36,499 nucleotides of DNA from the NCBI GenBank assembly GCA_024679535.1, contig JAIBDF010000018.1, positions 1-36,499 of the forward strand, given 5' to 3'. A program made the position numbers and the translations under genes. This document shows, in pieces, positions 6,906-32,392 of this stretch. The notes under the pieces are model-generated. The model did not search any database. It saw only the letters and a list, made by a program, of their open reading frames with translations, and was not told where the DNA came from. The first letter of the stretch is position 1, and each line of letters starts with the position of its first letter. Origin of the DNA: Chromatiales bacterium. GTDB lineage: Bacteria; Pseudomonadota; Gammaproteobacteria; Steroidobacterales; Woeseiaceae.

Positions 6906-6936
6906 TCGCCAATCCGGTTGCATTGGAGAAAGAAGG

Positions 6937-8525: not shown

Positions 8526-8527
8526 GC

Positions 8528-8560
8528 GCAGCGAGCAAGCCAAGCTGCCCCGATCGCTGC
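8528..8560. terminator. Hairpin between two convergent genes
   Basis: GCAGCGA (8528-8534) and TCGCTGC (8554-8560) are perfect 7-bp arms in the 36-bp gap between the convergent stops at 8525 and 8562. On the plus strand the stem is followed by ATTATTCTT. It probably works as a terminator for the copper operon, although the loop of 19 nt is long. Confidence 0.45.
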
Positions 8561-8561
8561 A

Positions 8562-10181
8562 TTATTCTTGAGGTCGAGGACCCATAGAACGCAGCACCCG
8601 TCCCGGCCGAACGCCGCTCATTTTTTTGTCAAGCAAAACCGCTTCACCGTTGATAAATACGTGATACATACCTTCAGCATATTGGTGAGGGTTCGCAAAC
8701 GTAGCCTTGTCAATGATCTCATCCGGATGGAACACGGCAACATCAGCGATCGCGCCGACTTCGAGCCTTCCACGGTCCGTCATGTTAATTCGGTCCGCAG
8801 GCATTCGTGTCATCTTATAAATCGCGGTGGTCAACGGCAGGTGCTGTCGCTCACGCACGAAGTCTCCGAGTACCCTTGCGAACGTGCCGTAATTGCGCGG
8901 ATGAGGCCGTAGGTTCCCGGGTGCCATAACACCGCCGTCCGATGCGATCATCGTTGTCGGATGCAGCATGATCCGGTCGACATCCTCCATTGACATGGCA
9001 TGGTACACGCAGCTGCACCCTCCTGCGTATTGCAGATCCATGATGAGTTCAGCCGCATTTTCGATGTTGACAACGATCTCACGCTGCCGCAGCACGTCCG
9101 CAAGATTCAGGCCATTCAGCGATGGGTCCCAGGCACAGTTCGCCAGCGCAACCTTTGCAGGATCATTTCCGCCGCGCTCATTGACCATCGAATAGATGAC
9201 GCCCTGCTTGATCTTCGCGCGCTGCTCGGGATCATCAAGACGTGCTTTTAGGGCTTTGTTTCCTCCGTCGAGGCTCCAGCGCGGGAATACCGCCGGTAGC
9301 CCCGTCGACGACGCCGGATACGGGTACTGATCGCTCGATACATCCACGCCTCGCTCAATGGCGGCATCGACAAGCGCCAACGCCTCAGTCGACCGACCCC
9401 ACATCGGGGCTCCCATGACCTTGTGATGAGTGATTTGTGCGGGAATATCCGCCTCCTCTCCGATACGAATCGTTTCCCTGATCGAATCCAGCAGGCCGAG
9501 CGCTTCATTACGCATGTGGCTGATGTAGATTCCGCCATAGGGTTTCACGACTTTGGCAAGTTCGATGACCTCCTCCGCCGGCGCGAAGCTTCCCGGCGCG
9601 TATAACAGACCCGAAGACAGGCCAAACGCACCGCTGTCCATCGCTTTCCGGACCTCGGCACGCATTTCTTCAAGTTCGTCATCGGTAGCTATTCGGTCTT
9701 CACGGCCGACGACCGTCGCGCGAATGGTCCCGTGCCCGACAAAGGAGCCATAATTAACCGTAGCCGGACTCGCCTCGAGTTTCTGAAAATCATTCTCGAT
9801 GGGCAGCGGAGACGAACCGTCCGGACCGCCAATAACAGTGGTGACGCCCTGCCTGATCAGGTTTTCTGCATCGGGCCAGAGATAGATGCCGCTGCGCGCA
9901 GCGTTCGGACGAATAGCATGGTTATGGATATCGATGATGCCAGGCATGACCGCGAGCCCACTGACGTCGATGCGCTGGTCGGCCGGGTGACCGTCAAGAT
10001 TCCCGATCGCGACGATGCGATCGCCCTCGATGCCGACATCGGCAACTATCGGCGACTCGTCAAGACCGCTGAAGACAGTGCCGCCGACGAGCACGATATC
10101 GATACTCTCCTGAACAGGACTCGTCTCGCCACCACACGCGCCAAGAAGCGTGGTTGCCAGGATTAAGCTAAACCAGCGCAT
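8562..10181 (-). CDS. N-acyl-D-amino-acid deacylase family lipoprotein (amidohydrolase superfamily)
   Basis: The product is 539 aa. It starts with a lipoprotein signal (MRWFSLILATTLLGAC, lipobox L-G-A-C), so it acts in the periplasm or on the outer membrane. The amidohydrolase barrel is clear: the HxH metal motif in DIHNHAI, YISHMRNE and QITHHKVMG carrying metal-binding His residues, and IASDGGV with the catalytic Asp. The end (GRLEVGAIADVAVFHPDEI) is typical of D-aminoacylases. One oddity: the segment after QGVTT that carries a zinc-ligand Cys (GNCG) in the Alcaligenes D-aminoacylase reads GGPDG here, with no Cys. Family members release D-amino acids from N-acyl-D-amino acids. The gene overlaps the end of the upstream transporter gene by 14 bp, so the two are co-transcribed and probably translationally coupled. 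Confidence 0.88.
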   Translation of the reverse strand: MRWFSLILATTLLGACGGETSPVQESIDIVLVGGTVFSGLDESPIVADVGIEGDRIVAIGNLDGHPADQRIDVSGLAVMPGIIDIHNHAIRPNAARSGIYLWPDAENLIRQGVTTVIGGPDGSSPLPIENDFQKLEASPATVNYGSFVGHGTIRATVVGREDRIATDDELEEMRAEVRKAMDSGAFGLSSGLLYAPGSFAPAEEVIELAKVVKPYGGIYISHMRNEALGLLDSIRETIRIGEEADIPAQITHHKVMGAPMWGRSTEALALVDAAIERGVDVSSDQYPYPASSTGLPAVFPRWSLDGGNKALKARLDDPEQRAKIKQGVIYSMVNERGGNDPAKVALANCAWDPSLNGLNLADVLRQREIVVNIENAAELIMDLQYAGGCSCVYHAMSMEDVDRIMLHPTTMIASDGGVMAPGNLRPHPRNYGTFARVLGDFVRERQHLPLTTAIYKMTRMPADRINMTDRGRLEVGAIADVAVFHPDEIIDKATFANPHQYAEGMYHVFINGEAVLLDKKMSGVRPGRVLRSMGPRPQE

Positions 10182-11676
10182 TCGGGGCTACGTACAGCGC
10201 AATGATGGTGACAATTACGATGCTGATCAGATTCAAAACCAGGCCTGCGCGAACCATTTGCGGAATCGTAATCTGGCCCGTCGCAAACACAATTGCGTTC
10301 GGCGGCGTTGCAACCGGCAGCATAAATGCACAGCTCGCGGCAATGGTAATCGGGACGGTCAGAAACAGGGGCGGAATGCCGGCCTGAATAGCGATTGCGC
10401 CCATAACAGGAAGCAATGTAGCGGTCGTCGCCAGGTTGCTCGTCAACTCGGTAAGAAAAATCACGAGCGCGACCGCTGCGATGACGAGAACCGCCAGACC
10501 AAATGCATTGAGCGGGGCAAGACTCTCACCAAGCCAGAGTGCCAACCCGGTATTCGAGACAGCGGCTGCAAGGCTAAGACCGCCACCGAACAAAATCAGC
10601 ACTCCCCAGGGCAGGCGAATAGCGTCATGCCAAGTCATGAGCTGCGGCTGCGTCACGTTGCCGCTTGGCAGCATGAACAGCAAAACACCTGCCGTCATGA
10701 CGATGCCCGCATCGGAGATGCCGCTGATACCAGCCAGCTCGGTGAGCGGTCGGCGCAACATCCACGAGATAATGACGAATCCAAAAATGATGGCAACGCG
10801 TTTCTCCGGCGTTGTTATCGGTCCCATCTCTTCGCGCAGCTCGTGCAGATGCCGGCTTACGGCCTCGCTCGCCGGAACATTGACCGGATGCAGGAAACGC
10901 GTCAACACGAACCAGGCTACTGGCAGCATCACCACCGTCACCGGAATTCCCACCGTCATCCAGCGCGCAAAACTGATCTCGATGTTGTAATTCTCGGCGA
11001 GATAACCGATCAGGAGCGCGTTAGGCGGCGTACCAACCAGGGTCGCAAGACCGCCAATACTGGCTGAATATGCGAGGCCAAGCAGCATGGCAATCTGGAA
11101 GTCGGCGCGACTCTTGTCAGACAGGTCAGATACGTTATCGCGGATCACGGCGATCACGGAAAGAACGATTGGCAACAGCATCATTGTTGTCGACGTATTT
11201 GTCATCCACATGCTGAGCATCGCACACACGAACATGAAGCCTGCAATCAGGCGCCTTCCATCCGTACCTGTCTTGTCGAGGATCGCCAGCGCAATCCTTC
11301 GATGCAGGTTCCAGCGTTCGAGGGCCAGGGCCATCAAAAATCCGCCGAGGAACAGGTAGATAATAGGATTGGCGTACGGCGCCGCCGCATCCCTAAGACT
11401 GGAGATACCAAGAGGCTCAAAGATCACGATGGGCAGAAAAGCCGTAACGGGAACCGGTATCGCTTCCGTTGCCCACCAGATAGCCATCCACAACCCCACG
11501 GCGGCGGTGCGCCACGCTTCGGCATTCATCGCACTCTGCCATTGTTCAGTTGCAAGCATCAGGGCAAACACGACCGGCCCGAGGATGCGGCCCACCATCT
11601 GGTAGGTCTCAAGGTCCCGGTTTACAGAGGGTTCCGCCGATTTGGGTGAAGTGATCACGTCAAATATTTCGGGCAC
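10168..11676 (-). CDS. DASS (SLC13) family sodium-coupled carboxylate transporter
   Basis: The product is up to 502 aa with about 11-12 hydrophobic segments, so it is an inner-membrane carrier. The two SNT-type signatures of the divalent anion:Na+ symporter family appear as MTNTSTTMMLLP and LTSNLATTATLLP in the two halves, and the end (PVATPPNAIVFATGQI) is also typical. Family members import succinate, fumarate, malate, citrate or related compounds. The start is uncertain: the longest reading begins with GTG at 11676, exactly at the foot of a strong hairpin and without a ribosome site. GTG 11658 and ATG 11598 are alternatives that keep all membrane segments. It lies 46 bp downstream of the TonB receptor gene and overlaps the deacylase gene, which suggests a single uptake-and-degradation operon. 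Confidence 0.92.
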   Translation of the reverse strand: MPEIFDVITSPKSAEPSVNRDLETYQMVGRILGPVVFALMLATEQWQSAMNAEAWRTAAVGLWMAIWWATEAIPVPVTAFLPIVIFEPLGISSLRDAAAPYANPIIYLFLGGFLMALALERWNLHRRIALAILDKTGTDGRRLIAGFMFVCAMLSMWMTNTSTTMMLLPIVLSVIAVIRDNVSDLSDKSRADFQIAMLLGLAYSASIGGLATLVGTPPNALLIGYLAENYNIEISFARWMTVGIPVTVVMLPVAWFVLTRFLHPVNVPASEAVSRHLHELREEMGPITTPEKRVAIIFGFVIISWMLRRPLTELAGISGISDAGIVMTAGVLLFMLPSGNVTQPQLMTWHDAIRLPWGVLILFGGGLSLAAAVSNTGLALWLGESLAPLNAFGLAVLVIAAVALVIFLTELTSNLATTATLLPVMGAIAIQAGIPPLFLTVPITIAASCAFMLPVATPPNAIVFATGQITIPQMVRAGLVLNLISIVIVTIIALYVAPNALV

Positions 11677-11722: not shown

Positions 11723-14719
11723 CTAGAAGTCCAGTCTTAGATCCAGATAGAACGACCGACCGAAGTCTCGATGCATATCCGAGAAGTAGCCGAAACGGTT
11801 ACTCGAAAGCGGTGCCCGTTCGTCAGTGACATTGACGATACCAAAGCGCACCCTGGCGCCGATGTCGGAAAAGGCATCGAACTGATAGTCGACCGACATG
11901 TTATAGGTCGTCATCGGTTCGAGAATCCACTGCGAACCGTCGCTGCCGAGCCCAGGTCGGGTCTCAATGGCATCAGAGAGCTTCGTGCCACTTACAGAGG
12001 CGCCCCAGTCACCCTTGCGCCATTTCACATGCGCCGTATGCTTCCAGGTCGGATTTCCATTTATGCGCTTCAGATCGGCGAAACCGGCAATCGAGATCTC
12101 AGGTGGTAGCACCCCTGCCTCCTGTGCTGCAAGGAGCTCAAGAGCCGGACCGCTGGGCACCTGCGTGTAATCGTCCAGCCGCGCGCCAACGTAGCGGAGG
12201 TCCCACTCGCCGAACCGCGAATCGATCGTGTAGTAGAGCCCTATATCGTGACCCTTGACTTTGCGGGTATCGAGATTCGCATACTGGTCATTAACACGAA
12301 CCGCGAGACCAACCGGGCAAATTCCTGCGTCAATGAACAACTGTTCTTCGGGCGAACCAGGGTCAGGAATATCGCCACGCACGACGGCCGTGTTGCCTGT
12401 GCAATCCGAGGGGCCACCTTCGATCAGGCGCAGCAAATCGAGAGCCGTGTGGTTATCCTCACCGAACAGACCGATCGTCTTCTCTTTCTCGATAGACCAC
12501 CAGTCAATCGTGACGGTGAAGTTATCCGTGACATCCCAGACGATGCCAATGGATGTGTTCTCGGATTCCTCTGGTACGAGCTCCTGACTACCGCCGGCTG
12601 CGCGCTGGACACCGAACGAGCAGTCATACAGGTCTTCATTCGGATCGACAAAATAACAGACCCAGTCGTCGACGGTGTTAGACCGGGCGACGCCACTCTC
12701 ATTGACCGTAACGAGGTTGGGGACCCGATAAGCCTCGGACCAGGAACCGCGAATCAACAGCGGATCTACGGGACGCCAACCCAAGGCGATCTTTCCGACC
12801 GTCGTATTGCCTACATCAGAGAAATCCTCGTAGCGCAGCGCAACCTGGGCATCCAGCCTTTCGTGCAGAGGGATCTGGAATTCGGTGAACGCCGAAAACA
12901 CATCGCGGCTGCCAGAGCTATCCAGCGTCGGACTCGAATTCATCACGTCGGAAACGATTGGGAAGCCGTTGCCAGCATTATCGACAAACTGAATTGTGCC
13001 ATCGAGGCGCGGATCGCGATCATCGAAGAACGACTCCTCACGCCACTCGATACCGGCGAGGAACCCGACCGGCCCGGCCCACATGTCGAACAGTTCAGCG
13101 TTCGACATCTTAAAATCGATCAGTTTGAGCTCAGTCTCGTTAATTCGATAAACATCGATCAACGCTCGGTCAATGTTGGTATCTCTTGCAGCACTGAACG
13201 CGTTGTATCCCGCCGGAGTCGGATCGTTCAGCGCTTCCTGCATGAGCGTATTCGAGATGCGATTCTTCGTGATGTCCTCTTTCTCGGCGCGCGACCAAAG
13301 CACCGCGCTTTCCCAATCCCAGTCACCGAGTGCCCCGCGGAGACCAGTCAGGAAACGATAAGTTTCACCATCGTTGTATACCGCGCGTGGCGCGTCGATC
13401 CAGCCGTAGTTGTCGATTTCGAGCTCGAGCCCCTCAACCGGAACATCCGTGCCTATGATCGTATCGGGCAGACGTGCTGTCGTACCAACTGCACCGAGGG
13501 GATTCCAGTAGGCATCCGCTGCAATTCGATACTTGGCCACTGCGCTCAGGCGAGTCGAACGATGGCGCTGCGTGAACGTATCCGAGATATACGCTGAAAA
13601 CTCGGTGAAACTCTCCAGTCCATTACCAAAGTCATGATTCAGGAATACGAACACATTGGTGCGCTTCAGGTCCGATAATAGATCGCGGTCCGTATTGAGG
13701 TTGTGGCGATAGATCGGATTGCCGTCGGCTGCGAAACAGACATTCGGATACTGATCGTCAAAAAACTCGCAGTTTTCGCTGTCGAGCGGGTATGTATTGA
13801 ATTCACCCGCTGAGTCCCAGAAATCGAACGGATCATCGAATCCGGAAACACTGGCTCGTATATCGTACTGGCCATACTCGGAGTTGGTACTCGAACGTCG
13901 GAATGACGTATCACCCTCGAACGGAGAGCCCTCTGGAATCAGTCGACGAAAATCATCGTCTGCCCATTTCTCGTCATCCTGCGAATTGACCGGATCACGA
14001 TCGTAGTAGCTACCAAACACGCTCAGGTTAGTACGACCGTCGTTAAACGACTTGCCCCACTCCATCGTGATTTTGAAATCGTTACGTGGCAGGTTGTCCC
14101 AAGCGCCGTAGCGAGCGCGCAGACTGAGACCGTCGAAGTCAGTCTTGAGAACGTAATTGACAACGCCGGCAACCGCATCAGCACCGTAAATGGCCGATGC
14201 ACCGTCGCGCAGCACTTCGACGCGTTCGAGACCATAAACGGGAAGCGTTTGGGAGTTGACCGTGTTCACCGGTACAAAACTACCGCCCGACAGTTCGGTC
14301 TGATAAGTCGCAGAGTTAACCATGCGTCGGCCGTTAAGAAGAACGAGCGTATTCCCGGTGCCGAGATTACGAAGGTTGTAGGCCCCCATGTCGCCCCTGG
14401 CCGAGTTAACACCGCCACTGATATTCTCCGCTTCACTTAAGAAGTTCTGGCCTTGTTCCGCCATGTACTCAAGCAGTTCATCGCCAGAATCGACACCCAG
14501 GTCCGCGATGTCCCTGGCGGTTACCACGGATACGGCCAGAGCATCGCGAATGTCTGCGCCTTTTATCTGCGACCCGACTGTGACGATCTCCTCAATGGTC
14601 TCATCGTCTTCATTTTCCTGAGCAAAAACCGTTCCGCTCACGAAAGGTAAAACGAGTCCGCTGAAGACAATTAAACTCAGGCGGCCGCGACAACGCGGAA
14701 TTTTGATCTCAAATGACAT
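11723..14719 (-). CDS. TonB-dependent outer-membrane receptor
   Basis: The product is about 998 aa. A signal peptide ends at VFAQ, followed by an acidic stretch and a TonB box-like EEIVTVGSQI. The plug domain (roughly residues 35-190) shows GAYNLRNLGTGNTLVLLNGRR and VEVLRDGASAIYGADAVAGVVNYV. The remainder is a 22-strand-type barrel ending in the aromatic C-terminus FYLDLRLDF. There is no N-terminal STN signalling domain. I chose ATG 14719 because GGGGAG lies just upstream; a reading from 14767 is possible but lacks a ribosome site. The receptor class imports siderophores, glycans, peptides and other ligands. Being upstream of the transporter and deacylase genes suggests an organic acid or N-acyl amino acid ligand, which is inference. 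It is divergent from the LysR gene. Confidence 0.93.
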   Translation of the reverse strand: MSFEIKIPRCRGRLSLIVFSGLVLPFVSGTVFAQENEDDETIEEIVTVGSQIKGADIRDALAVSVVTARDIADLGVDSGDELLEYMAEQGQNFLSEAENISGGVNSARGDMGAYNLRNLGTGNTLVLLNGRRMVNSATYQTELSGGSFVPVNTVNSQTLPVYGLERVEVLRDGASAIYGADAVAGVVNYVLKTDFDGLSLRARYGAWDNLPRNDFKITMEWGKSFNDGRTNLSVFGSYYDRDPVNSQDDEKWADDDFRRLIPEGSPFEGDTSFRRSSTNSEYGQYDIRASVSGFDDPFDFWDSAGEFNTYPLDSENCEFFDDQYPNVCFAADGNPIYRHNLNTDRDLLSDLKRTNVFVFLNHDFGNGLESFTEFSAYISDTFTQRHRSTRLSAVAKYRIAADAYWNPLGAVGTTARLPDTIIGTDVPVEGLELEIDNYGWIDAPRAVYNDGETYRFLTGLRGALGDWDWESAVLWSRAEKEDITKNRISNTLMQEALNDPTPAGYNAFSAARDTNIDRALIDVYRINETELKLIDFKMSNAELFDMWAGPVGFLAGIEWREESFFDDRDPRLDGTIQFVDNAGNGFPIVSDVMNSSPTLDSSGSRDVFSAFTEFQIPLHERLDAQVALRYEDFSDVGNTTVGKIALGWRPVDPLLIRGSWSEAYRVPNLVTVNESGVARSNTVDDWVCYFVDPNEDLYDCSFGVQRAAGGSQELVPEESENTSIGIVWDVTDNFTVTIDWWSIEKEKTIGLFGEDNHTALDLLRLIEGGPSDCTGNTAVVRGDIPDPGSPEEQLFIDAGICPVGLAVRVNDQYANLDTRKVKGHDIGLYYTIDSRFGEWDLRYVGARLDDYTQVPSGPALELLAAQEAGVLPPEISIAGFADLKRINGNPTWKHTAHVKWRKGDWGASVSGTKLSDAIETRPGLGSDGSQWILEPMTTYNMSVDYQFDAFSDIGARVRFGIVNVTDERAPLSSNRFGYFSDMHRDFGRSFYLDLRLDF

Positions 14720-14871
14720 GTTTTCTCCCCTGCTCTTGCCAGATTTTGATGCCGGCGAATGAAGCAATTTTGCTTATACCCGCTGTTTTAACGCGCGGAC
14801 AGCCACTAATCCGCCACTTCTTTCCTACGCTAACAACCCCGGACGGCTCTGACCAATCGCTTCACTTGGCC

Positions 14872-14896: not shown

Positions 14897-14966
14897 CGTG
14901 GGCTTGCAGCACCCTTTTTAGGGGGTGTATGGGCTGATACATAACCGCGAGCTATGGGGGAAGGCT

Positions 14967-15866
14967 ATGCGCCTGCGGCAAATCGAGGTGTTTCACGCGA
15001 TCTACACCAGTGGATCGATGACCAACGCCGCCAAACTACTGCACGTCTCTCAGCCTTCTGTCAGCAAAGTCCTGGCCCACGCCGAGCAGCAACTAGGATA
15101 CGCGCTCTTTGACCGCGTCAAGGGCAAGCTCGTGGCAACGCCAGAGGCCGATCGGCTCTTTGGCCTTGTTTCCAATGTGTTCGAACACGTTGAGCGCCTG
15201 CGGCACGTCTCAGAGAATCTACGTGCATCCAGTGCCGGAAAAATTCGTATCGCGGCAACACCGGCGTTCGGCGTCGAACTTTTGCCAGCCGCCGTCAGCA
15301 GTTATCTCCGCAAGTACTCCGACACGGTGTTCGAAATTGAGACATTGCACCACGACCAAATTGCTGCGGCGCTGCTCGACTCGCGAATTGATATCGGGCT
15401 TGCATTTGACTCGGTACCCGTCCCCGGACTGGCAACCGATTCACTCACGAAAGCCGAGTTTGTAATCATCACTCATCCGGATATCGATTTGGGCGGTGAC
15501 CGAATCTCAATCGAAGCACTGGCTGACTTGCCTTTCATAGGACTGAGCAGCCGTGGCCCGCTCGGTCAGCTTCTGACGACCTATCTTGAGAAGTCCGACG
15601 TGCGGCTGAACATGACCGTTCTCACCGAGACCTACCATATTGCCAAAGCACTCGTCGCGAAAGGCAGCGGCGTTTCAATTGTCGACTCAATTACCGCTCA
15701 CTCAACCGAATCCGAGAACGTGAGGCACTGGTCGCTCGACCCGCCGCTTGGTTATTCGATAGACGTTCTGCGCGCGGACAGCATGCCGCTGTCAGTGCTT
15801 TGCCGGCGCTTCGTTGGACATTTGCAAGTGGTTATCGAAAAGCATCTAGGTAATCGCATGGCATAG
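14967..15866 (+). CDS. LysR-type transcriptional regulator
   Basis: The product is 299 aa, the normal family length. The N-terminal winged helix is classic (RLRQIEVFHAIYTSGSMTNA, then LLHVSQPSVSKVLAHAE and LFDRVKGKLVATPEA). The rest is a periplasmic-binding-like effector domain starting near KIRIAATPAFG. I chose ATG 14967 because GGGGGAAGG lies directly upstream and the family N-terminus begins there; reading from 14925 adds 14 extra residues. It stands between the divergent TonB/transporter/deacylase operon and the D-amino-acid dehydrogenase gene, 93 bp upstream of the latter. It most likely regulates one or both, with a substrate of this pathway as effector. The N-terminus resembles regulators of amino-acid catabolism, but I cannot name an orthologue. 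Confidence 0.93.
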   Translation: MRLRQIEVFHAIYTSGSMTNAAKLLHVSQPSVSKVLAHAEQQLGYALFDRVKGKLVATPEADRLFGLVSNVFEHVERLRHVSENLRASSAGKIRIAATPAFGVELLPAAVSSYLRKYSDTVFEIETLHHDQIAAALLDSRIDIGLAFDSVPVPGLATDSLTKAEFVIITHPDIDLGGDRISIEALADLPFIGLSSRGPLGQLLTTYLEKSDVRLNMTVLTETYHIAKALVAKGSGVSIVDSITAHSTESENVRHWSLDPPLGYSIDVLRADSMPLSVLCRRFVGHLQVVIEKHLGNRMA

Positions 15867-15959: not shown

Positions 15960-17192
15960 ATGCATGTAGTTGTGCTGGGCGCGGGCGTCGTCGGAATTAC
16001 GACAGCCTACTTCCTTACAAAGGCGGGACACGAGGTCACCGTAATTGACCGCGATGCGGATGTCGCCAATGCATGCAGCTATGGTAACGGCGCACAGCTC
16101 AGTTACAGCTATGTTGACGCGATGGCGAGCGCGGCTTTTCTTCTCAAGACGCCCGGTTTGCTGGCGGGATTTGATCGCGCAATTCGGGTCCGGCCCCCGC
16201 TAACCATCGAGTTTTTGCGCTGGAGCCTTGGCTTTGCGACGGAATGCACAAAGAAAAAAGCGATTGCGAATACGTTGGCTAATCTGGAACTCGCGCAGCG
16301 CTCCAAAGAACTGCTGCGCGATTTGCGGCGCGAATTACCGGGAGAGTTCGGTCATCGGATTGCCGGAAAGCTCGTACTTCTCAGCAAAGGCAGCGACCTT
16401 GAAGCTGCACGGCAGACCGCGAAACTCAAAACCCGCCTCGGGTGTCCCGCCAGCGTGATCTCGCTTGACCACGCTTGCGAGATAGAACCTGCCATCGCCC
16501 GAATGTTGGGGCCATACGCCGGCGCCGTCTATTCGCCGCAAGACGAGGTCGGCGACTCAGCAGCATTTTCCCGTGAACTGGCCAATTATCTGAGCCGCCA
16601 GGGCACATGTCATTTTGCGCTGAATACAACAGTAGACGACCTGCTTGTGGAACAGGGTGCGCTGCGCGCGGTCGCAACCAATCGCGATCACATCGATGCC
16701 GATGCCGTCGTGGTCAGTCTTGGAGCCTGGAGTTCGACCCTTCTCAACTTGTTAGGCGTCCACCTCCCCATCTATCCCGTACGGGGTTACAGCGTCACAC
16801 TACCACTTGGCGAACATCCCTCCTCTGCGAGCGTCACCGACTTTGGCCGGCGTCTTGTCATTAGCAGGATTGATGACCAGATTCGTATTGCAGGATTTGC
16901 CGACTTTGTCGGCTTTCGCTCGTCACATGACGAACGGCGCATCGACGACTTGCTGAACGCCGCAAAATCCAGTGCGCCTGCGGTCGCAGACTACCAATCG
17001 AGGAACAATCAGGCTTGGGGCGGTTTCCGACCATTGACGCCCAATGGCCGCCCAATCGTCGGCGCAACACCGATCCGAGGCATTTATCTGAACACCGGAC
17101 ACGGCTCCTTTGGGTGGACGCTGGCGTGCGCGACTGCAGAACAGGTCGCCGCCCTGGTCCAAGGCGAACCCACGGCCGCAATTGCCGCCTAG
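15960..17192 (+). CDS. FAD-dependent D-amino-acid dehydrogenase, DadA-like
   Basis: The product is 410 aa, close to DadA (about 430 aa). The FAD-binding motif stands at the extreme N-terminus (VVVLGAGVVGITTAYFL), followed by the VIDRDADVANACSYGNGAQL segment typical of DadA. The C-terminal motif WGGFRPLTPNGRPIVG and the final GHGSFGWTLACATAEQVAAL are also family hallmarks. These membrane-associated enzymes oxidise D-amino acids to 2-oxo acids and ammonia and feed electrons to quinone. The start codon lacks a strong ribosome site, but starting elsewhere would break the nucleotide motif. It follows the LysR gene by 93 bp. Its stop codon shares the palindrome CTAG (17189-17192) with the stop of the convergent FecR gene. 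Glycine or sarcosine oxidase-like activity is an alternative, less likely. Confidence 0.88.
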   Translation: MHVVVLGAGVVGITTAYFLTKAGHEVTVIDRDADVANACSYGNGAQLSYSYVDAMASAAFLLKTPGLLAGFDRAIRVRPPLTIEFLRWSLGFATECTKKKAIANTLANLELAQRSKELLRDLRRELPGEFGHRIAGKLVLLSKGSDLEAARQTAKLKTRLGCPASVISLDHACEIEPAIARMLGPYAGAVYSPQDEVGDSAAFSRELANYLSRQGTCHFALNTTVDDLLVEQGALRAVATNRDHIDADAVVVSLGAWSSTLLNLLGVHLPIYPVRGYSVTLPLGEHPSSASVTDFGRRLVISRIDDQIRIAGFADFVGFRSSHDERRIDDLLNAAKSSAPAVADYQSRNNQAWGGFRPLTPNGRPIVGATPIRGIYLNTGHGSFGWTLACATAEQVAALVQGEPTAAIAA

Positions 17193-18250
17193 GGACTTCG
17201 CAATAGTAGCCAGTTCGCATTCTGATCGTCGATCAGGATGCCGTACTTCGCACCCAATTTCTCAAGGAAAACACGTGCGTCCCCTGTCTCAAAACGACCG
17301 CTGATGCGCATTCCGCTTAGTTCGCTGTCGGCAACGTGAATCGAGACGTGCATGTAGCGGCGCATTTCCTCAACGACCGCATGTAGCGGCTGGTCCTCAA
17401 AAATAACGACGCCTTTGCGCCAGGAAAGACGTTTCCGAAATTCTTCGGTTCCCAGGGATTTCTGACGGTAACTAGAGCCGGATACCTCCAGCCACTCGCC
17501 CGCATCCAGTAATGCGGTTCCGGGCGCAAAGGTGACCCCAATATCATTGTCATATTCGGTAAGCGGCGCCGGCTGGTCCCTTGTAGCGACGGCCACCGTG
17601 CCCTCAATTACAGACACCTCGAGTACGTTACCACTGAGATCGACGCCAAACCGCGTGCCCAACGCTGTGATCGAGCCGAGATCGGTCACGACCACGAACG
17701 GCCGTGGATCTTCTGCAACGTGAAATACCGCCTCGCCTTGCTGCAAGCGTATATGGCGCTTCTGATCGTCAATAACCACATCCATTTCCGTGCGCGCATT
17801 CAGTTCGAGCACAGAGCCATCGGTAAGCACCAATGCCCGCGACTCACCGATATCCGTTTCGAAGGTCTCGACGGTGGGACTGAGCACAAAATGGGCGGCA
17901 ATCCCCAATGCAACTATGGCCATGGCGATTCCGGCGGACCAATCGCGTCGTGGCGCAGGCGAGTTTTTATGTGCGGTATTTTCGACAGTCGGTGCGGCCG
18001 AGGCCAGGGTCACCACATTATCCGCCTGCAACAGCGGCTCGATATCCGATAGTGTTTTCAATCGCGCCCAGACTTCGGAAAGCTCCTCAAAAGCCCAGCG
18101 ATGCGTCGGATCCTCATCGAGCCAGCGCGCAAACGAGATACGGTCCGCAATGTTGCAGCGTTCCGAATCGAGCAGTGCCAGCCACGCGGCGGCATCGTCC
18201 GCCACAACCTCGGAGATATTCTGATCAAGCCAATCGGGGAGTCGCGTCAT
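17189..18250 (-). CDS. FecR-type anti-sigma factor
   Basis: The product is 353 aa. Residues 17-65 are the cytoplasmic FecR N-terminal domain (AWLALLDSE, FARWLDEDPTHRWAFEEL). One transmembrane helix follows at about 107-128 (AGIAMAIVALGIAAHFVL), then the periplasmic FecR domain (GESRALVLTDGSVLELNART, LQQGEAVFHV, VIEGTVAV). A C-terminal STN-like domain (FEDQPLHAVVEEMRRYM, RISGRFETGDARVFLEKL) closes the protein. It would hold the adjacent sigma factor inactive until a periplasmic cue arrives. Start and sigma-factor stop overlap as ATGA (18247-18250), which indicates translational coupling. No receptor with a matching N-terminal signalling domain is adjacent. Confidence 0.92.
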   Translation of the reverse strand: MTRLPDWLDQNISEVVADDAAAWLALLDSERCNIADRISFARWLDEDPTHRWAFEELSEVWARLKTLSDIEPLLQADNVVTLASAAPTVENTAHKNSPAPRRDWSAGIAMAIVALGIAAHFVLSPTVETFETDIGESRALVLTDGSVLELNARTEMDVVIDDQKRHIRLQQGEAVFHVAEDPRPFVVVTDLGSITALGTRFGVDLSGNVLEVSVIEGTVAVATRDQPAPLTEYDNDIGVTFAPGTALLDAGEWLEVSGSSYRQKSLGTEEFRKRLSWRKGVVIFEDQPLHAVVEEMRRYMHVSIHVADSELSGMRISGRFETGDARVFLEKLGAKYGILIDDQNANWLLLRSP

Positions 18251-18831
18251 GATGCGGCTCCAGCATCCTGCCGCGGCTCTGGCAGGTCGTTTTCTTTGTC
18301 CTCAGCTTCAGTTCTTGCTCGAATCTCGCTCCTGCAAAAACGAAGCCCTTTGGCCAGATGTTTTTCGACCGTGCTTTCGGCAATGCCCAGTCGCTCGCTG
18401 ATCGCGCGCTGACTGAGTCCCTGGATCCAACGCAACACAAACACATCGCGACATTTCGGTGGCAAGGAGTTGATTATCAGCATCAGAGAATTGAGTTTCT
18501 GGCTTTTGCTGACCATCTGCTCCGCGCTCGAACGTTCGCCTCGCAATTCTTCGGCCACTGACACCGCGGTCATAGAGTGTCTGATGACGGCTTCGTGCCG
18601 CAGGCGGCTAATTGCAAGATTGCGCGCAGTCGTGAACAGCAGCGCTTCCGGGGAATGACCACCGCTGCGCTCTTTGCTGAGCGCTACGAATACCCTTAGA
18701 TAGGCATCCTGCATGATGCCCTGAACATCGTCAGGCGAAGATACGTACTTCGCGATGTAACCGCCCAGACCCCTTTTAGTTGTCTCGACAAATTCATCAA
18801 ACCAGTCGTTTTCTTTATTCAAATCTGGCAA
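18247..18831 (-). CDS. ECF sigma factor, FecI-like
   Basis: The product is 194 aa. Region 2 is visible at about residues 18-80 (VQGIMQDAYLRVFVAL, LLFTTARNLAISRLR) and region 4 at about 120-170 (LPPKCRDVFVLRWIQGLSQR, then AISERLGIAESTVEKHLAKG). The start is TTG 18831, with GGAG 7 nt upstream and no better ATG. The gene overlaps the end of the lyase gene by 17 bp and the FecR gene by 4 bp, so all three form one coupled operon. It should direct RNA polymerase to promoters needed when the FecR partner is signalled. Its targets cannot be told from the sequence; the lyase operon itself is an obvious candidate. Confidence 0.92.
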   Translation of the reverse strand: MPDLNKENDWFDEFVETTKRGLGGYIAKYVSSPDDVQGIMQDAYLRVFVALSKERSGGHSPEALLFTTARNLAISRLRHEAVIRHSMTAVSVAEELRGERSSAEQMVSKSQKLNSLMLIINSLPPKCRDVFVLRWIQGLSQRAISERLGIAESTVEKHLAKGLRFCRSEIRARTEAEDKENDLPEPRQDAGAAS

Positions 18832-20272
18832 ACGCCTGCTCCAACGCAGACCCGGAGTGTTGCAAGTGCTGGCGTGTCACGTCAAGCCAGGTCGAATCCG
18901 AACTCAATGAGTCGGCGTGCGTGCGCAACATTTTTCGTACCTCAATTTCTTGCGGTCCGCCCATCCCCCGGCGCGCGCGCACCATGGCAATCGGATCCAT
19001 GGCCTCCCGCACTAACGCAACCGCCAAAGGCATTTCCACGCCAGTAGATTCTTCGTACACGCGCAATAATTCCGCGTCGGTCAGGTCCTTGGGGCGCTTG
19101 CCCCGTGCCCTGCCATACGTCGTCAACTCAGACGCATAGTGATGTCCAATGCGAAACGGCACGTCGGCACGTCGCAGCAGCACGTCAGCCACTTCGGTCA
19201 TGGTCGAGTAGTCGATTTCGACTTCCTCTAAGGCGCGCATGGGGTCTACGATCAGGCTGTTCATGACTTTTACGTAGGCCGCGAACATGCGCTGCGCTTT
19301 AGTTGCTACTTCGGCTGCCTGATCACGCGGCCGGTAGTCATTCATGCCGGAATTTGTGTTGTGCGCAATGAGCGTCACGGCATGAGCATCACTCACTACG
19401 CCTGTTGCAAGCAACCGCACTGCATCGATCGGTCTGGGGTTGCGTTTCTGCGGCATGATACTGCTCACACCAGTTATGTCTTCAGCCAATGTCAGCCACG
19501 GCTTCGGATTGTGATATTGCGTATGCAGATTCTGCATCAGCTGTCCCACTGTTATCGCCGAAATCGACAACGCATTTGCAAATTCGATTTTCGAGTCAAC
19601 TGATGAAACGAGGTTTGCGTCGTATGAATTTACGATCGGCGCATCAAAGCCAAGCAGCGTAGCGAGCCGCTCGCGATTGATAGCAAACCCGGATGTACCC
19701 AGTGCCGCTGCACCGAGCGGGCTGCGGTTCAGGCGCGCATAAACTTCCCGGAGGCGCACGGCGTCGCGTTCAAATGCTGCTGAGAATGCCAGCAGGTAAT
19801 GCGCGAGCGTCGTAGGCTGTGCCTGCACACCGTGGGTATAGGCGGGAATAATTGTATGGACATGCTGCTCGGCCAACGCCAGCAATGCGCGGCGTGCAGC
19901 CAGCAGAGCCTCATATGATCCCAGCAAATCTTCCCGCAAACCCATGCGACGATATGTCGAGCCTATGTCCTGGCGACTGCGGCCCGTATGCAGGCGCGAG
20001 GCTTCGGGACCGGTGACCTCGATCAGGCGAGCCTCGAAGTCGAGGTAGTTCGCCGACCGTGCGGACCCCTCCCGAGCCTGTTCCTTAATGACTTTGGCAA
20101 TGCCTCCCGCAATCAACCCGGCAAGATCGGCGGGAATAATACGCTCTTCGGCAAGCATGACCAGCGAGGCTTTATTAATTTCACCAAGATGGTGAAAATC
20201 ATCGTGAGCATCGGCGTAGACGGCCGCCGACCCGGCAATCATCACGCTCGTCAAAGCTGTCAAATACCGCAA
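18815..20272 (-). CDS. Exported argininosuccinate-lyase-like enzyme (aspartase/fumarase superfamily)
   Basis: The product is 485 aa. The catalytic landmarks of argininosuccinate lyase are kept: HTGRSRQD at 95-102, YTHGVQAQP at 145-153 with the catalytic Thr-His pair, PLGAAALGTSGFAINRERL at 185-203, and the mobile-loop signature SSIMPQKRNP at 270-279. Unlike ArgH it begins with a Sec-type signal peptide (MRYLTALTSVMIAGSAAVYA, cut near ADA-HDD), so it should act in the periplasm. The start is TTG 20272 with GAGGA about 8 nt upstream; there is no in-frame ATG between it and the preceding stop. Family enzymes split N-succinyl-type C-N bonds to fumarate and an amine. Argininosuccinate is unlikely outside the cell; EDDS-lyase-like substrates (N-substituted aspartates) are plausible. 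It leads an operon with sigma and FecR genes. Confidence 0.88.
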   Translation of the reverse strand: MRYLTALTSVMIAGSAAVYADAHDDFHHLGEINKASLVMLAEERIIPADLAGLIAGGIAKVIKEQAREGSARSANYLDFEARLIEVTGPEASRLHTGRSRQDIGSTYRRMGLREDLLGSYEALLAARRALLALAEQHVHTIIPAYTHGVQAQPTTLAHYLLAFSAAFERDAVRLREVYARLNRSPLGAAALGTSGFAINRERLATLLGFDAPIVNSYDANLVSSVDSKIEFANALSISAITVGQLMQNLHTQYHNPKPWLTLAEDITGVSSIMPQKRNPRPIDAVRLLATGVVSDAHAVTLIAHNTNSGMNDYRPRDQAAEVATKAQRMFAAYVKVMNSLIVDPMRALEEVEIDYSTMTEVADVLLRRADVPFRIGHHYASELTTYGRARGKRPKDLTDAELLRVYEESTGVEMPLAVALVREAMDPIAMVRARRGMGGPQEIEVRKMLRTHADSLSSDSTWLDVTRQHLQHSGSALEQAFARFE

Positions 20273-20342
20273 GAATTTATCCTCATGCCGAACTGTTACA
20301 AGAACGTGTAAGAAGCATCAAATCCTCTAGTCACGCCAGATT

Positions 20343-21140: not shown

Positions 21141-22781
21141 TTAGCCAAGCAGCGACGCGTTTACGTCACGGTCAACGACACCGTCGATGGCAAAGTAGGC
21201 CGACTGGATCGCGCCCTCTTGCCAACCCTGCAAAAGGCTGAGGTGCTCCCCAGCAAAGAATATGTTGTCGTCTGCGGCCAGCAGGACCGATGCATCCGAC
21301 GTACCCCACCCGCCCATTTGAAACGGGACCTTGCTCCACGCAATGCTTATCCCGTGCATCGCCAATCCTGTCATCTGCGCGTGCACATTGGATGCCTGCG
21401 CAAGCGTCGTATCGATACGTTGTTGCGGCCCCAGTCCGGTAAATGCGGCGCCCGACGGCCCGTCGAAAATATAGGCGCCGATGATGATGCCATTGGTCCG
21501 GTGGAACCCGTAGTTTGGATACCAGATCTGAGTTATGTCCTGGTCCGTCCAGCTGATTCCGCCGTATATATTATGGTCTTGCTCCCAAAAACGCGGCGAC
21601 TGGAATGCAATGCGCACGGCCGATGAATACTGAAACCCCGCGACTTCAGCCTGATGTGCGGCCGAAAAGTTGTTCGCTATCGTGGCGAGTACGGGTGCCG
21701 GAATCGTCACTACGCAGTAGTCGGCATCCATCGTTGTCGGCGTACCAAATCGATCAGCGTAAACAACACGCGCACCATTTTCCGTTTTCCGAATCTCCGT
21801 GACGACGGCCTGGTACACAATGTTATTGACGACCTGTGCTTCGAACGCCCGAGCGACGCGATCCATACCGCCGACCGGCTGCAACATGGTTGGCTGCTGA
21901 TCAAAGCCCTGCGAAAACGACAGTCGGAACTCCCAGAAAAAGTCGGTCACTATTTGTTGCAGTTGCCGGGGTGACAACAGCTCGCCCCGTTGCCTGCTGC
22001 CGACGTTCTCCTGACCAGGAAAACCTGCGCGCGGCGTTGCAGCGTAGTTATTGTTGATGTCGAGGTCGCCATACTGTTGCAGCATCGCCAGGATGTTGGC
22101 TTTGTCAGTAGCCGTAAGTTCCCCATCCAGTGCATTCTGACTGATAGCTGTTGACAGCAGCTCTGCGATGCCACCACGCGTATCGGCGATGAGTCGCCTT
22201 GCGACCTGTGGCTGCCCGCCAAACGCATTGGGCGAATGTAGCCAGGCACCTCGATTGTCATTAGTAAACGTTTCGAGTTCGACACCGAAATCACGGCAAT
22301 ATCCCAGCAGAAACTCGTGGTGTTGCGCAATGCGCGACGGACCGGCGTTGAAGTAAAGATCGTCATCGACGTCAAACTGGCAGGTCTGCATCGAGTCGAT
22401 CTCGTCAACGACGTCGCCGGAACGAATTGTCCTGACTCGGCCTCCGGCAGAAGTCTGGGCCTCGAGAATTGTGCAGCTATAGCCCAGCCGGGTCATTTCG
22501 AGTGCCGTCGTCATCCCGGCGATGCCAGCACCGAGAATCACTACGGATTTTCCAGCACCAATATTGGGTGGCCAGTCACCAGGCCGTGGTGACATTGAAG
22601 GTTGTGACGGCGGAGGTATCGTTGGCCGAGCCGGAGGCGACGCTGCTGACGATGAACCGCATGCAGAGACAGCCGTACCGATCCCCATCGCGAGCATCGT
22701 GCGCAACATGGCAGAACCGCCGACAGCTTTGCCGACAGCAGTCAGAAATTCCCGTCGCGCTATTCCAGATTTCTTACTCAT
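21141..22781 (-). CDS. Flavin amine oxidase with Tat-type lipoprotein signal
   Basis: The product is 546 aa. The N-terminus has twin arginines (ARREFL, Arg9-Arg10), a hydrophobic stretch and a lipobox A-V-S-A-C41, followed by a Ser/Pro-rich linker. It thus looks like a folded, flavin-loaded protein exported by Tat and lipid-anchored. The FAD motif is VVILGAGIAGMTTALEM (residues 80-96) and the second flavin signature is SAGGRVRT. The C-terminus has NIFFAGEHLSLLQGWQEGAI, typical of monoamine/L-amino-acid oxidases and tryptophan 2-monooxygenase relatives. The reaction would be oxidative deamination of an amine or amino acid, giving peroxide and ammonia. The ribosome site at 22781 is weak. It stands alone between a decayed gene and a divergent TPR gene. 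The substrate is unknown. Confidence 0.9.
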   Translation of the reverse strand: MSKKSGIARREFLTAVGKAVGGSAMLRTMLAMGIGTAVSACGSSSAASPPARPTIPPPSQPSMSPRPGDWPPNIGAGKSVVILGAGIAGMTTALEMTRLGYSCTILEAQTSAGGRVRTIRSGDVVDEIDSMQTCQFDVDDDLYFNAGPSRIAQHHEFLLGYCRDFGVELETFTNDNRGAWLHSPNAFGGQPQVARRLIADTRGGIAELLSTAISQNALDGELTATDKANILAMLQQYGDLDINNNYAATPRAGFPGQENVGSRQRGELLSPRQLQQIVTDFFWEFRLSFSQGFDQQPTMLQPVGGMDRVARAFEAQVVNNIVYQAVVTEIRKTENGARVVYADRFGTPTTMDADYCVVTIPAPVLATIANNFSAAHQAEVAGFQYSSAVRIAFQSPRFWEQDHNIYGGISWTDQDITQIWYPNYGFHRTNGIIIGAYIFDGPSGAAFTGLGPQQRIDTTLAQASNVHAQMTGLAMHGISIAWSKVPFQMGGWGTSDASVLLAADDNIFFAGEHLSLLQGWQEGAIQSAYFAIDGVVDRDVNASLLG

Positions 22782-26756: not shown

Positions 26757-29195
26757 ATGTTGAAATGTTGGTTCATGTCAATGAAGCGTAGCTTCGCGCT
26801 TGCAATGCTGATCTGGGCAGGCATCAGTCTGCCTATCGCTGCAACATCGGCAACCAATGCGCCGGTTGAAAGCCATGCGCGAGCAATCGAGCTGGCTCGC
26901 GCCGGGGCGCTCGACGAATCGCTCGAACTCATTGAAGAGCTGCGTAGCGCAGATCCGGAAAACCTCCAGTTGCGCTATGACGAAATCGTTGTCCTGGGAT
27001 GGGCCGACCGGGACGAGGAAGCCACTGCTGCAGCGAAGGGGATTGACACTGCGAACACCCCTGGCTACGTACTCCATTCCTTGGCCAAGTCCTCCCGTAA
27101 CCTGGGCCAGTTTGAGTCTGCAGTCGCATGGTACGCGCTACTGTTGGCGCGGAGCGATCGCGATATCGAAGCCCGCATCGGGCTTGCGATGGCCTATGCG
27201 GATGCGAAGCGCTTCGCGGACGCCCGGAGTGTGCTCGGTGCGCACCCCGATCCGGAACAACATCATGTTCGGCTGAACCTCGCTGAAGGCTATATTCTTG
27301 AACGCCAGGGCCGTTTCACAGAGGCGCTGGCGCGCTACCAAGATATACTTGAGATCGAGCCCGGTAACCGCCCTGCACTGCGAGCGATGGTATTGCTCCT
27401 ACGCTCCATCTTGTTGCCGCGAGAGGCGCTGGCGCTGGCGCGTCGACACCCGGGTCTCGCCAGCGACGACGAGATTGTACAGCTGGAGGCCGACATCGCC
27501 GCGTTGCGAATCCGATTTGGCGCACAGTCCTCTTATCCGGCAACCCAAAGATTCAGCGGCACCGACAGTGCCCTTTCGGATCTCGATCAATTACTGGCGA
27601 ACAGCGAGCTCTCGCCGACAGTTCGGCAGCGCCTGCGGTACGACCGGGTAGTTGCACTCACTGATCGGCTACGTGCGGGTGAGGCCATCGCGGAATTCGA
27701 GACAAACCTGGCACAAGCCGACGATCCTCCCGATTATGTACTTAAAGCAGTAAGTCGTGCATATCTGTACGAGCGTAAACCGGAGTTGGCCCGCCATTAC
27801 CTGGAAAAAGCGCTGGAACTAGATCCGCAAAACGTCGACATTAAGTTTCGGCTGTTTTACGTCTATACCGACCTCCAAGAGCACGATCTCGCGTTACGCC
27901 TTGCTGAGACGCTGGTGCAAGACCTGCCTCCTGTCCAGCAAATACCAGATACGGACATAGTCCGGGGTTCTGAGGAATACCTGCGTGCTGCCGTGATGGT
28001 CGGCCTTGCGTCTGCGTACGCCGATCAGTTGGCAGACTCGCAGCAACATTTCGAGCACCTCTCGACAGCGTTACCCCACAATACCGATATTCGGCAGGAA
28101 CTTGCCAACGTTTATCGCTGGCGGGGCTGGACCGACCGTGCGCTATTCGAGTATGCGCAAGTACTCGCAGTCGAGCCGGGGCTTATCTCCGCACGCGTCG
28201 GCCGCGCCCATACTCAGCTCGACAATCACGACTACGCTAGCGTCGACCTGGAACTTCAGTACCTCAAAAAACGCTATCCATTCGAGCCCGCGGTTACTGC
28301 CCTTGAAAAACGCTGGATCGATCACAATCGGCAAGAGCTTGAGGTCGAAACTAGAGTCGGTCGAAGCAGTGGTGAAACATTCGGTCAGGATCAATACCAG
28401 ATCGATGCCACCTGGTACTCACAGCCACTCGCTTACCGCTACCGGGCTTTTGTCACGTCACACAACGCATTTGCCGAATTTCCGGAAGGCCAGGAACGCC
28501 GCAACCGCATCGGCGCCGGTGTTGAATATCGGCACAAGCGTTGGCTGACGGCCGTGCAGCTTTCAGATGGTGTCGGCGGTGGCGATCTTGGTCTGCGTGG
28601 TTCGATCGACTATCGCATCAACGACTACGTCAAGGTCGGCGGACGGCTGGAAACTGACAGCGATTCGATGCCGCTTCGCGGCGAACGAGCGGGCGTGAGC
28701 AGCGATCTCCTGGGACTGAATGCCGCTTATGCGCGAGACGAATCAGCAGCTGTCGAAGCCGGCCTGGTACTTCAGGATTTTAGTGACGGCAATGCATCGC
28801 GTTCAATGTACGTAAACGGCAGGAAACGCGTCGTCAATCGAGCCGAATACAAGTTATCGCTACTGGGCGATATCTACGCAAGCAGCAGCGACAAAGACGA
28901 TGTGCCTTACTTTAGCCCCAAGAGCAGTTTCAGCTGGAACGTTGGAGTAAGTAACGACTGGCTCATTTACCGCCGCTATGACTTCGGGCTGTCGCACAAG
29001 CTAACCGGACGACTTGGACAGGTGGACCAGTCCAGCTTCGGCACAGACTCCACCTGGTCACTAGAGTACCTGTTCCACTATGATTTCGACTCGCGCTGGG
29101 GGGGATTCATTGGGCTCAACCGGAACAGTAACGTGTATGACGGCACGCGCGAATACGCCACCTACGTTTTCGGCGGACTTCGAGGACGTTTCTGA
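26757..29195 (+). CDS. pgaA: PgaA, poly-beta-1,6-N-acetylglucosamine outer-membrane export porin
   Basis: The product is 812 aa, the family size. A signal peptide (MKRSFALAMLIWAGISLPIA, residues 9-28) leads into a periplasmic TPR superhelix of about 500 residues (AIELARAGALDESLELIEEL, YILERQGRFTEALARYQDIL, YLEKALELDPQNVDIKFRLF). The C-terminal 290 residues form an outer-membrane beta barrel ending in the aromatic FGGLRGRF. It lets de-N-acetylated PNAG leave the cell. I kept ATG 26757; GGGAGGAG lies about 13 nt upstream, a little far, and ATG 26781 is a possible start at the signal peptide. Its stop and the pgaB start overlap by one base (TGATG). It heads a compact pgaABCD operon behind two CRP-type sites. 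Confidence 0.92.
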   Translation: MLKCWFMSMKRSFALAMLIWAGISLPIAATSATNAPVESHARAIELARAGALDESLELIEELRSADPENLQLRYDEIVVLGWADRDEEATAAAKGIDTANTPGYVLHSLAKSSRNLGQFESAVAWYALLLARSDRDIEARIGLAMAYADAKRFADARSVLGAHPDPEQHHVRLNLAEGYILERQGRFTEALARYQDILEIEPGNRPALRAMVLLLRSILLPREALALARRHPGLASDDEIVQLEADIAALRIRFGAQSSYPATQRFSGTDSALSDLDQLLANSELSPTVRQRLRYDRVVALTDRLRAGEAIAEFETNLAQADDPPDYVLKAVSRAYLYERKPELARHYLEKALELDPQNVDIKFRLFYVYTDLQEHDLALRLAETLVQDLPPVQQIPDTDIVRGSEEYLRAAVMVGLASAYADQLADSQQHFEHLSTALPHNTDIRQELANVYRWRGWTDRALFEYAQVLAVEPGLISARVGRAHTQLDNHDYASVDLELQYLKKRYPFEPAVTALEKRWIDHNRQELEVETRVGRSSGETFGQDQYQIDATWYSQPLAYRYRAFVTSHNAFAEFPEGQERRNRIGAGVEYRHKRWLTAVQLSDGVGGGDLGLRGSIDYRINDYVKVGGRLETDSDSMPLRGERAGVSSDLLGLNAAYARDESAAVEAGLVLQDFSDGNASRSMYVNGRKRVVNRAEYKLSLLGDIYASSSDKDDVPYFSPKSSFSWNVGVSNDWLIYRRYDFGLSHKLTGRLGQVDQSSFGTDSTWSLEYLFHYDFDSRWGGFIGLNRNSNVYDGTREYATYVFGGLRGRF

Positions 29196-32391: not shown

Positions 32392-32392
32392 C

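Follow-up and report, generated by a model that had tools for sequence, protein, structure and literature searches.

A relative of argininosuccinate and EDDS lyases with a signal-like N-terminus in a proposed TonB-fed periplasmic catabolic system

Introduction

Argininosuccinate lyase (ArgH) and its relatives are usually regarded as cytosolic enzymes. The closest solved relative of the enzyme described here is the EDDS lyase of Chelativorans sp. BNC1 (PDB 6g3d), whose reported pocket residues include R112, N113, Q159, N288, D290 and Y320 (PMC12363623). A catabolic role has been described for the lyase-class-I enzymes termed 2SL, which release fumarate from N-acetyl-2-succinocysteine (PMC9706529). 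An argininosuccinate-lyase-like protein has also been reported in a putative siderophore cluster, which is unrelated to the present system (PMC8719888). Among the titles and abstract starts of the open-licence literature on periplasmic, secreted or exported argininosuccinate lyase and on TonB/FecR, we found no recognisable description of a system like the one below, a result that proves little; the main text of a paper on the Woeseiaceae (PMC12175321) contains neither "argininosuccinate" nor "lyase".

We analysed a 36,499-nt stretch of DNA, referred to as the window (contig JAIBDF010000018.1 of a Chromatiales bacterium, family Woeseiaceae). The original prediction for this locus was of an exported ArgH-type lyase acting on another substrate, for example an EDDS-like one, and controlled by surface signalling. 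That interpretation holds in part: the enzyme is of an exported type, it is not ArgH, and EDDS lyase is its closest solved relative, but it is not EDDS lyase itself and FecA-type signalling is not supported. The prediction also took in only part of a larger system, to which belong a TonB-dependent receptor, a DASS symporter, a D-aminoacylase-like lipoprotein, an M14 carboxypeptidase and a shared promoter. Judged from the sequences, this is probably a TonB-fed periplasmic catabolic system in which the lyase would release fumarate from an N- or S-succino compound and the symporter would import that fumarate.

Results

A lyase with a signal-like N-terminus in a sigma factor operon

The features of the locus are collected in Table 1. 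The lyase ORF has AGGA 7 nt upstream of its start codon and matches the Pfam families Lyase_1 (3.1e-30) and ASL_C2 (5.9e-9). The protein carries the signature loop SSxMPxKxNP and the fold of the aspartase/fumarase superfamily, to which it belongs, and it appears to be sent outside the cytoplasm. Its N-terminus reads LRYLTALTSVMIAGSAAVYADA-HDDF, in which an Arg and a hydrophobic core are followed by ADA, an Ala-x-Ala-like site, ahead of the conserved HDDF; the positive residue, core and cleavage-like site together make up a candidate signal peptide. The lyase ORF shares 17 nt with the sigma factor gene, and the FecR and sigma factor genes overlap in the sequence ATGA. Because the genes overlap, lyase, sigma factor and FecR very likely share one transcript. 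The ArgH-type lyase with a signal-peptide-like start, in an operon with its own ECF sigma factor and FecR, that was first noted here is thus confirmed by the loop (SSIMPQKRNP), the signal-like N-terminus and the overlapping genes.

Table 1. Features of the window that bear on the lyase system
Feature	Position	Strand	Basis or remark
D-aminoacylase-like amidohydrolase	8562..10181	-	Profile matches, structure search; lipoprotein-like N-terminus (LLGAC, by eye)
DASS (SLC13-type) sodium-coupled anion symporter, probably for dicarboxylates	10168..11676	-	Profile matches, motifs
TonB-dependent receptor, plug and barrel, no STN	11723..14719	-	Likely ATG at 14719, inside an ORF from 14767
Candidate ECF promoter before the receptor	14788..14815	-	GGCGGATTA-N11-CGCGTTAA
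LysR-type regulator adjoining the DadA-like gene	14925..15866	+	Profile matches
DadA-like FAD D-amino-acid dehydrogenase	15960..17192	+	Profile matches
FecR-type sigma regulator, one predicted membrane segment	17189..18250	-	Profile matches
ECF sigma factor	18247..18831	-	Profile matches
Exported-type ArgH/EDDS-lyase-like lyase	18815..20272	-	485 aa; TTG start; signal-peptide-like N-terminus
Candidate ECF promoter before the lyase, weaker match	20301..20328	-	AGAGGATTT-N11-CACGTTCT; score 15.6

A flavin amine oxidase gene (Amino_oxidase; 21141-22781) lies on the lyase's strand and upstream of it; its product has an exported-looking N-terminus by eye. Elsewhere in the window we noted, also by eye, genes of a pgaABCD-like poly-N-acetylglucosamine cluster (26757-32959) and a large multicopper-oxidase-like protein followed by an SCO1/cytochrome-c-like fusion (4098-8007).

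Exported-type lyases form a single clade

In a maximum-likelihood tree of 45 proteins, from which the partial lyase of locus L050 was left out, 28 exported-type lyases (that of the window and 27 relatives) form a single clade with support of 100/100, and both EDDS lyase and ArgH fall outside it. Subgroup A, the window type, has seven rows (support 92/90), from the window, L018, L019, L010, L017, L023 and L024. Subgroup F comprises six M14-fused rows (100/100) and is sister to A (96/95). Subgroup B has three rows (100/99), and subgroup C has 12 (100/100), with plasmid and genome members that include Agrobacterium fabrum, Cupriavidus metallidurans, Caballeronia and Paracoccus. The nearest cousins outside the clade, with weak support (85/85), are D_L051, D_L052 and several plasmid "argH" genes. 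The tree program warned of long branches, all listed ones being outside the exported clade. The six other subgroup A lyases are 61-71% identical to the window lyase in the alignment, so its features are not due to chance, and SSIMPQKRNP is invariant across the ten A and B rows.

Homologues are found in 10 of 107 genomes at family level (E 1e-60), 18 of 196 at order level (E 1e-90; including three weaker matches, two placed outside the clade and one unplaced), five of 398 in a phylum sample (E 1e-90) and one of 369 in a class sample (E 1e-60), this last being the window's own genome. At E 1e-20 there are 239 matching plasmid records; the best 14 of these (36-40% identity) are set apart by score from an argH-like rest, and eight of the 14 were compared. 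Five of seven annotated plasmid records with a clade member name it "argininosuccinate lyase", another uses "lyase family protein" and the last has no gene listed there, so the role of the clade lyases is probably mislabelled.

Signal-like N-termini recur across the clade. Measured as the best Kyte-Doolittle mean over 11 N-terminal residues, the hydrophobic core reaches at least 1.64 in 21 of 22 non-fused members; the window lyase, at 1.77, stands near the low end of the clade values. Only L067 departs from this: it was read from its annotated start, which is short, and a hydrophobic stretch appears when translation is taken to begin earlier. By the same measure, none of 16 lyases outside the clade exceeds 1.15. 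Some start codons were chosen by us, including L017, L022 and L023 (no ATG start), and EDDS lyase, available as residues 40-486 only, was left out of the comparison. For the six fused members the test was applied to the excised lyase domain; by eye, their full-length proteins open with hydrophobic residues belonging to the M14 portion.

The lyase is not a true ArgH

The top NCBIfam match of the window lyase is argH, which favours a reading of it as a cytosolic ArgH paralogue whose hydrophobic N-terminus is no signal. We consider this highly improbable. The lyase scores 232.8 bits against the argH equivalog (TIGR00838), below the cut-off of 279.5, and the same genome has another argH, on contig C52, that scores 310.4 bits, over the cut-off, and is flanked by arginine-type genes by eye. 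In the tree the three ArgH rows form their own clade (98/98), separate from the exported one, and the signal-like N-termini recur in diverged homologues. The pocket differs as well: RND and NPD, present in all three ArgH rows, read RQD and NPR in the window lyase. ArgH identity is rejected on the score, the clade, the pocket and the other argH. A third argH-model match in the genome, on C140, falls in an ORF that resembles class II fumarase by eye. Genes over the argH cut-off are present in seven of the eight genomes checked; the eighth (G076) has partial matches only, on C33 and C73, which may be fragments of a single gene. The original prediction is upheld here: the enzyme is no true ArgH by score, clade and pocket, and the separate argH that it looked for exists. 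Judged on sequence, the lyase neither groups within ArgH without a signal nor pairs a cytoplasmic N-terminus with a genome devoid of another argH.

Pocket residues set the lyase apart from EDDS lyase

The best solved sequence matches of the window lyase are 6rx8, the D290M/Y320M variant of EDDS lyase (2.3e-56), and 6g3d (4e-56). Its predicted model (pLDDT 84.4, from a 10-row alignment) likewise has EDDS lyase as best fold match (Z 39.9, rmsd 3.4 over 465 residues); the native EDDS lyase entry gives Z 38.6, and ArgH and delta-crystallin give Z 37.4 and below. The EDDS-like substrate first suggested agrees with this kinship in sequence and fold, but the pocket indicates that the enzyme is not EDDS lyase itself. 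In the alignment of 45 rows, with positions in EDDS lyase numbering, R112 and N288 are retained in the window lyase, and N113 is replaced by Q, Q159 by H and D290 by R in all 13 A and F rows. EDDS lyase proper is rejected on these three replacements. The R at position 290 is confined to these 13 rows among the 45, the H at 159 is also found in ArgH, and a residue other than Asn at 113 is seen in XcbC, XcbD, L072 and L078 as well, four rows from outside the clade. The replacement of D290 by R suggests a leaving group with a negative charge nearby, a carboxylate rather than an amine.

The stretches GRSRQD, YTHGV, PQKRNPR and AHNT(N/M)(S/T)GMxDYR are common to all 13 A and F rows, and ArgH has a K-D-x-Q-type stretch at the position of the last. 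The F rows have Thr in place of EDDS-lyase Ser281, the second Ser of the loop. The alignment is unsure near Y320, since this residue falls on a gap in subgroup A. The pocket of subgroup C reads GRS(S/R)QD, YTNGV, NPG and AHN, and subgroup B keeps RND and has NPS. Around L072, on a Variovorax plasmid (1-11410), "argH" has an MmgE/PrpD gene and an Asp/Glu racemase for neighbours, a cluster that may be of an iminodisuccinate type.

Two members of the superfamily that NCBIfam names as coenzyme M enzymes, XcbC and XcbD, share the non-Asn residue at 113, which would fit another superfamily elimination in which fumarate is not the product. For the window lyase such a reaction is quite unlikely, as it retains the SSIMPQK loop and the His, where XcbC has KIMPQK and a Tyr at 159, and both Xcb proteins branch outside the exported clade.

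Transport and amide-cleaving genes accompany the lyase

Loci were compared through homologues of the window's genes and of other chosen genes at E 1e-10. A receptor homologous to that of the window is found in six of seven A loci (not L024), five of six F loci (not L049) and L050. The DASS symporter, whose MWMTNTST and TSNLATT we take to be SLC13-type motifs, is present in all six A loci that extend far enough, and the D-aminoacylase-like protein in five of six (not L017). Within subgroup A, orthologues of the DadA-like and LysR-type genes (58% and 72% identical) occur in L019 only.

Peptidase and acylase genes recur as well. Beside the A operon, on the opposite strand, an M14 carboxypeptidase gene lies in four of the five loci where this stretch is visible, the L019 and L010 stretches ending before the position. 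It is absent from the window, and the window's own genome (assembly 95% complete) has no homologue at E 1e-3, which weakens M14 as an obligate partner. In all six F loci (L046, L047, L048, L049, L058 and L059, six of the seven genomes found with that family) M14 is fused to the lyase in proteins of about 880-910 aa that keep the M14 zinc and carboxylate motifs. The best solved relatives of M14 are bacterial M14 and cytosolic-carboxypeptidase-like enzymes. Two S45 acylase genes lie upstream of the fusion in five of six F loci (not L058), and for one S45 protein the best solved relative is D-succinylase, followed by penicillin and glutaryl-7-ACA acylases. L050 has two GGTs, the partial lyase gene, the receptor and an M19 dipeptidase. 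Three different gene sets thus pair the lyase with amide-cleaving enzymes, and we propose an amide or peptide-like carrier chiefly for this reason.

The stretches compared for subgroups B (three) and C (12) contain no homologue of the receptor, DASS, sigma factor or FecR. Since subgroup C members occur there without receptor or DASS, a lyase of this clade does not always require the system. Seven annotated C records show no recurring operon partner by eye; four other C loci were judged from ORF lists, and L062 came without annotation.

Several further neighbours were noted. A gene with a glutamate-synthase FMN domain and, by eye, a Rieske-like start stands directly before the lyase in L018 (7271-11252), L019 (11790-15771) and L010 (2401-3381), preceded by ABC-transporter genes in two of the three. 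Sulfatase-like and molybdopterin-type oxidase-like genes lie near the lyase in L020 and L021 of subgroup B, by eye, which makes for another setting. A cysteine-desulfurase-like gene precedes the lyase in L017 (6849-8132; TIGR01976, scanned in L017), and L024 has one there that is 71% identical (8298-9581).

Candidate substrates

The release of fumarate from a substrate other than argininosuccinate, as originally proposed, fits the neighbouring DASS symporter; the class of substrate is a matter of interpretation. One special case of the preferred succino-compound reading is C-N elimination from an N-(1,2-dicarboxyethyl) amino acid or metallophore, possibly of a D-amino acid and iminodisuccinate- or EDDS-like. 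Iminodisuccinate C-N lyase yields D-aspartate. We hold this case to be a serious possibility, if short of an even chance. EDDS lyase is the nearest solved relative, and the D-aminoacylase-like lipoprotein, the S45 acylase nearest D-succinylase (the one searched) and the DadA-like oxidases all point to D-amino acids; the R at position 290 suggests a carboxylate rather than an amine on the leaving group. The pocket residues, however, are unlike those of EDDS lyase, and a TonB receptor for such small chelates is only putative.

The other special case, which we think rather unlikely, is an S-adduct such as S-(2-succino)glutathione or S-(2-succino)cysteine, which an N-side hydrolase and a C-side peptidase would trim before C-S elimination by the lyase into fumarate and a thiol. 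It would account for L050, where the two GGTs adjoin the lyase and, with the M19 dipeptidase, make up a set that we take to resemble glutathione-conjugate breakdown, and for the cysteine-desulfurase-like genes upstream in L017 and L024. The set with GGT and M19 is seen in one locus only, however, and the D-amino-acid theme of the other loci is left unexplained. A precedent for the chemistry exists in 2SL, which releases fumarate from N-acetyl-2SC (PMC9706529), the likeness to 2SL being drawn from its published description. A search with the PRK06705 profile at E 1e-75 matched none of 229 genomes.

Sigma factor, FecR and candidate promoters

Homologues of the sigma factor and FecR (E 1e-10) are present in five of seven A loci (not L018 or L010) and in none of the F, B or C loci compared. 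The conservation that the original prediction set out to check is uneven: signal-like N-termini recur among homologues, but the linkage to sigma factor and FecR is limited to these five among the loci compared. The ECF sigma factor adjoins FecR, as in FecI/FecR/FecA systems. None of the seven linked TonB receptors scanned (window, L046, L018, L019, L017, L023 and L050) has an STN domain, and the one STN match that the window's own genome yields falls within an ORF resembling PilQ by eye. Since the receptor has no STN domain, FecA-type signalling via the adjacent receptor, the surface-type control envisaged at first, is not supported.

A motif, (A/G)GCGG(A/G)TT-N-CGCGTT, was found by eye and then searched across all compared loci. 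It precedes the receptor in all four loci that have both sigma factor and receptor, and a tighter pattern matched only those receptor sites and L006, a copy of L023. A matrix built from the four receptor sites was tested on lyase upstream regions, outside its training, with 500 shuffles each. Sites were found upstream of the lyase in four of five sigma-bearing loci, with scores of 15.6 (window), 17.8 (L017), 17.5 (L023) and 16.2 (L024), equalled by 0, 0, 0 and 2 of 500 shuffles, respectively. There was no match upstream of the L019 lyase (487 of 500 shuffles as high), none in two sigma-less loci (lyase 233 and 44, receptor 402 and 35 of 500) and none upstream of the L024 DASS gene (128 of 500). 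Scattered scores of 10-17 occur elsewhere in the stretches, including 16.1 at window 20571(-) and 16.9 at L018 3251, so that the lyase site alone is unconvincing; what convinces is its position and recurrence. Genome-wide, the strict pattern occurs three times in the window's own genome (G000) versus two for the reversed control, and given this closeness we claim no further regulon members.

Discussion

The candidate export signal, the kept loop, the clade, the pocket, the linkage, the M14-lyase fusion and the promoter motif are all read from sequence; the reaction, the substrate, the order of steps and the inducer we infer from them. An amide or peptide-like compound bearing a succino group would enter the periplasm through the receptor, and exported amide hydrolases would trim it there. 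In the window this role may fall to the D-aminoacylase-like lipoprotein, and in relatives to the M14 carboxypeptidase, the S45 acylases, and GGT or the M19 dipeptidase. The exported lyase would then eliminate fumarate from an N- (or S-) 1,2-dicarboxyethyl group, as superfamily chemistry and the kept loop suggest, and the DASS symporter would import the freed fumarate. The freed amine or D-amino acid could be used inside the cell, a DadA-like oxidase being encoded in two loci. The ECF sigma factor and FecR would drive their own lyase operon and the receptor-DASS-amidohydrolase operon through the shared candidate promoter.

More tentatively, and with somewhat less than even confidence, we propose that these loci represent a previously unrecognised extracytoplasmic "de-succination" pathway that would combine import by a dedicated TonB receptor, trimming at two ends in the periplasm, stripping of fumarate and DASS uptake, under ECF control in some lineages. 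Candidate substrates would be fumarate adducts of glutathione or N-succino D-amino-acid compounds, and one lineage fuses the lyase to the trimming carboxypeptidase. If this is true, some bacteria would have a way to use fumarate adducts. It would further supply substrates to test, make available to biocatalysis a C-N or C-S lyase whose pocket is distinct, and add a compact ECF regulon for which a promoter is predicted. A well-supported clade of an enzyme family usually thought of as cytosolic here appears to have moved outside the cytoplasm.

Compared with known systems, the window lyase has the domain architecture, the loop and the YTH histidine of ArgH (TIGR00838), but it scores below the cut-off, is of an exported type, has RQD for RND and NPR for NPD, and belongs to a separate clade. 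With EDDS lyase (Chelativorans sp. BNC1, 6g3d) it shares the SSIMPQK loop, R112 and the top sequence and fold match, whereas EDDS lyase lies outside the exported clade and differs at N113, Q159 and D290, where the window lyase has Q, H and R. D-aminoacylase and N-acyl-D-glutamate deacylase (1rjp, 1m7j and 3gip) are among the closest solved relatives of the operon's amidohydrolase, which differs in being lipoprotein-like. The 2SL enzymes of Enterococcus italicus and Dickeya dadantii, compared here by description, are likewise of lyase class I, release fumarate from a succino adduct and belong to a catabolic gene set, but the yxe set described for them has an ABC transporter, an acetyltransferase and a deacetylase (PMC9706529). 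Finally, the locus resembles the FecI/FecR/FecA iron systems in its ECF sigma factor, its one-segment FecR and its TonB receptor with a shared candidate promoter, and departs from them in that the receptor is without STN and the cargo is a catabolic operon.
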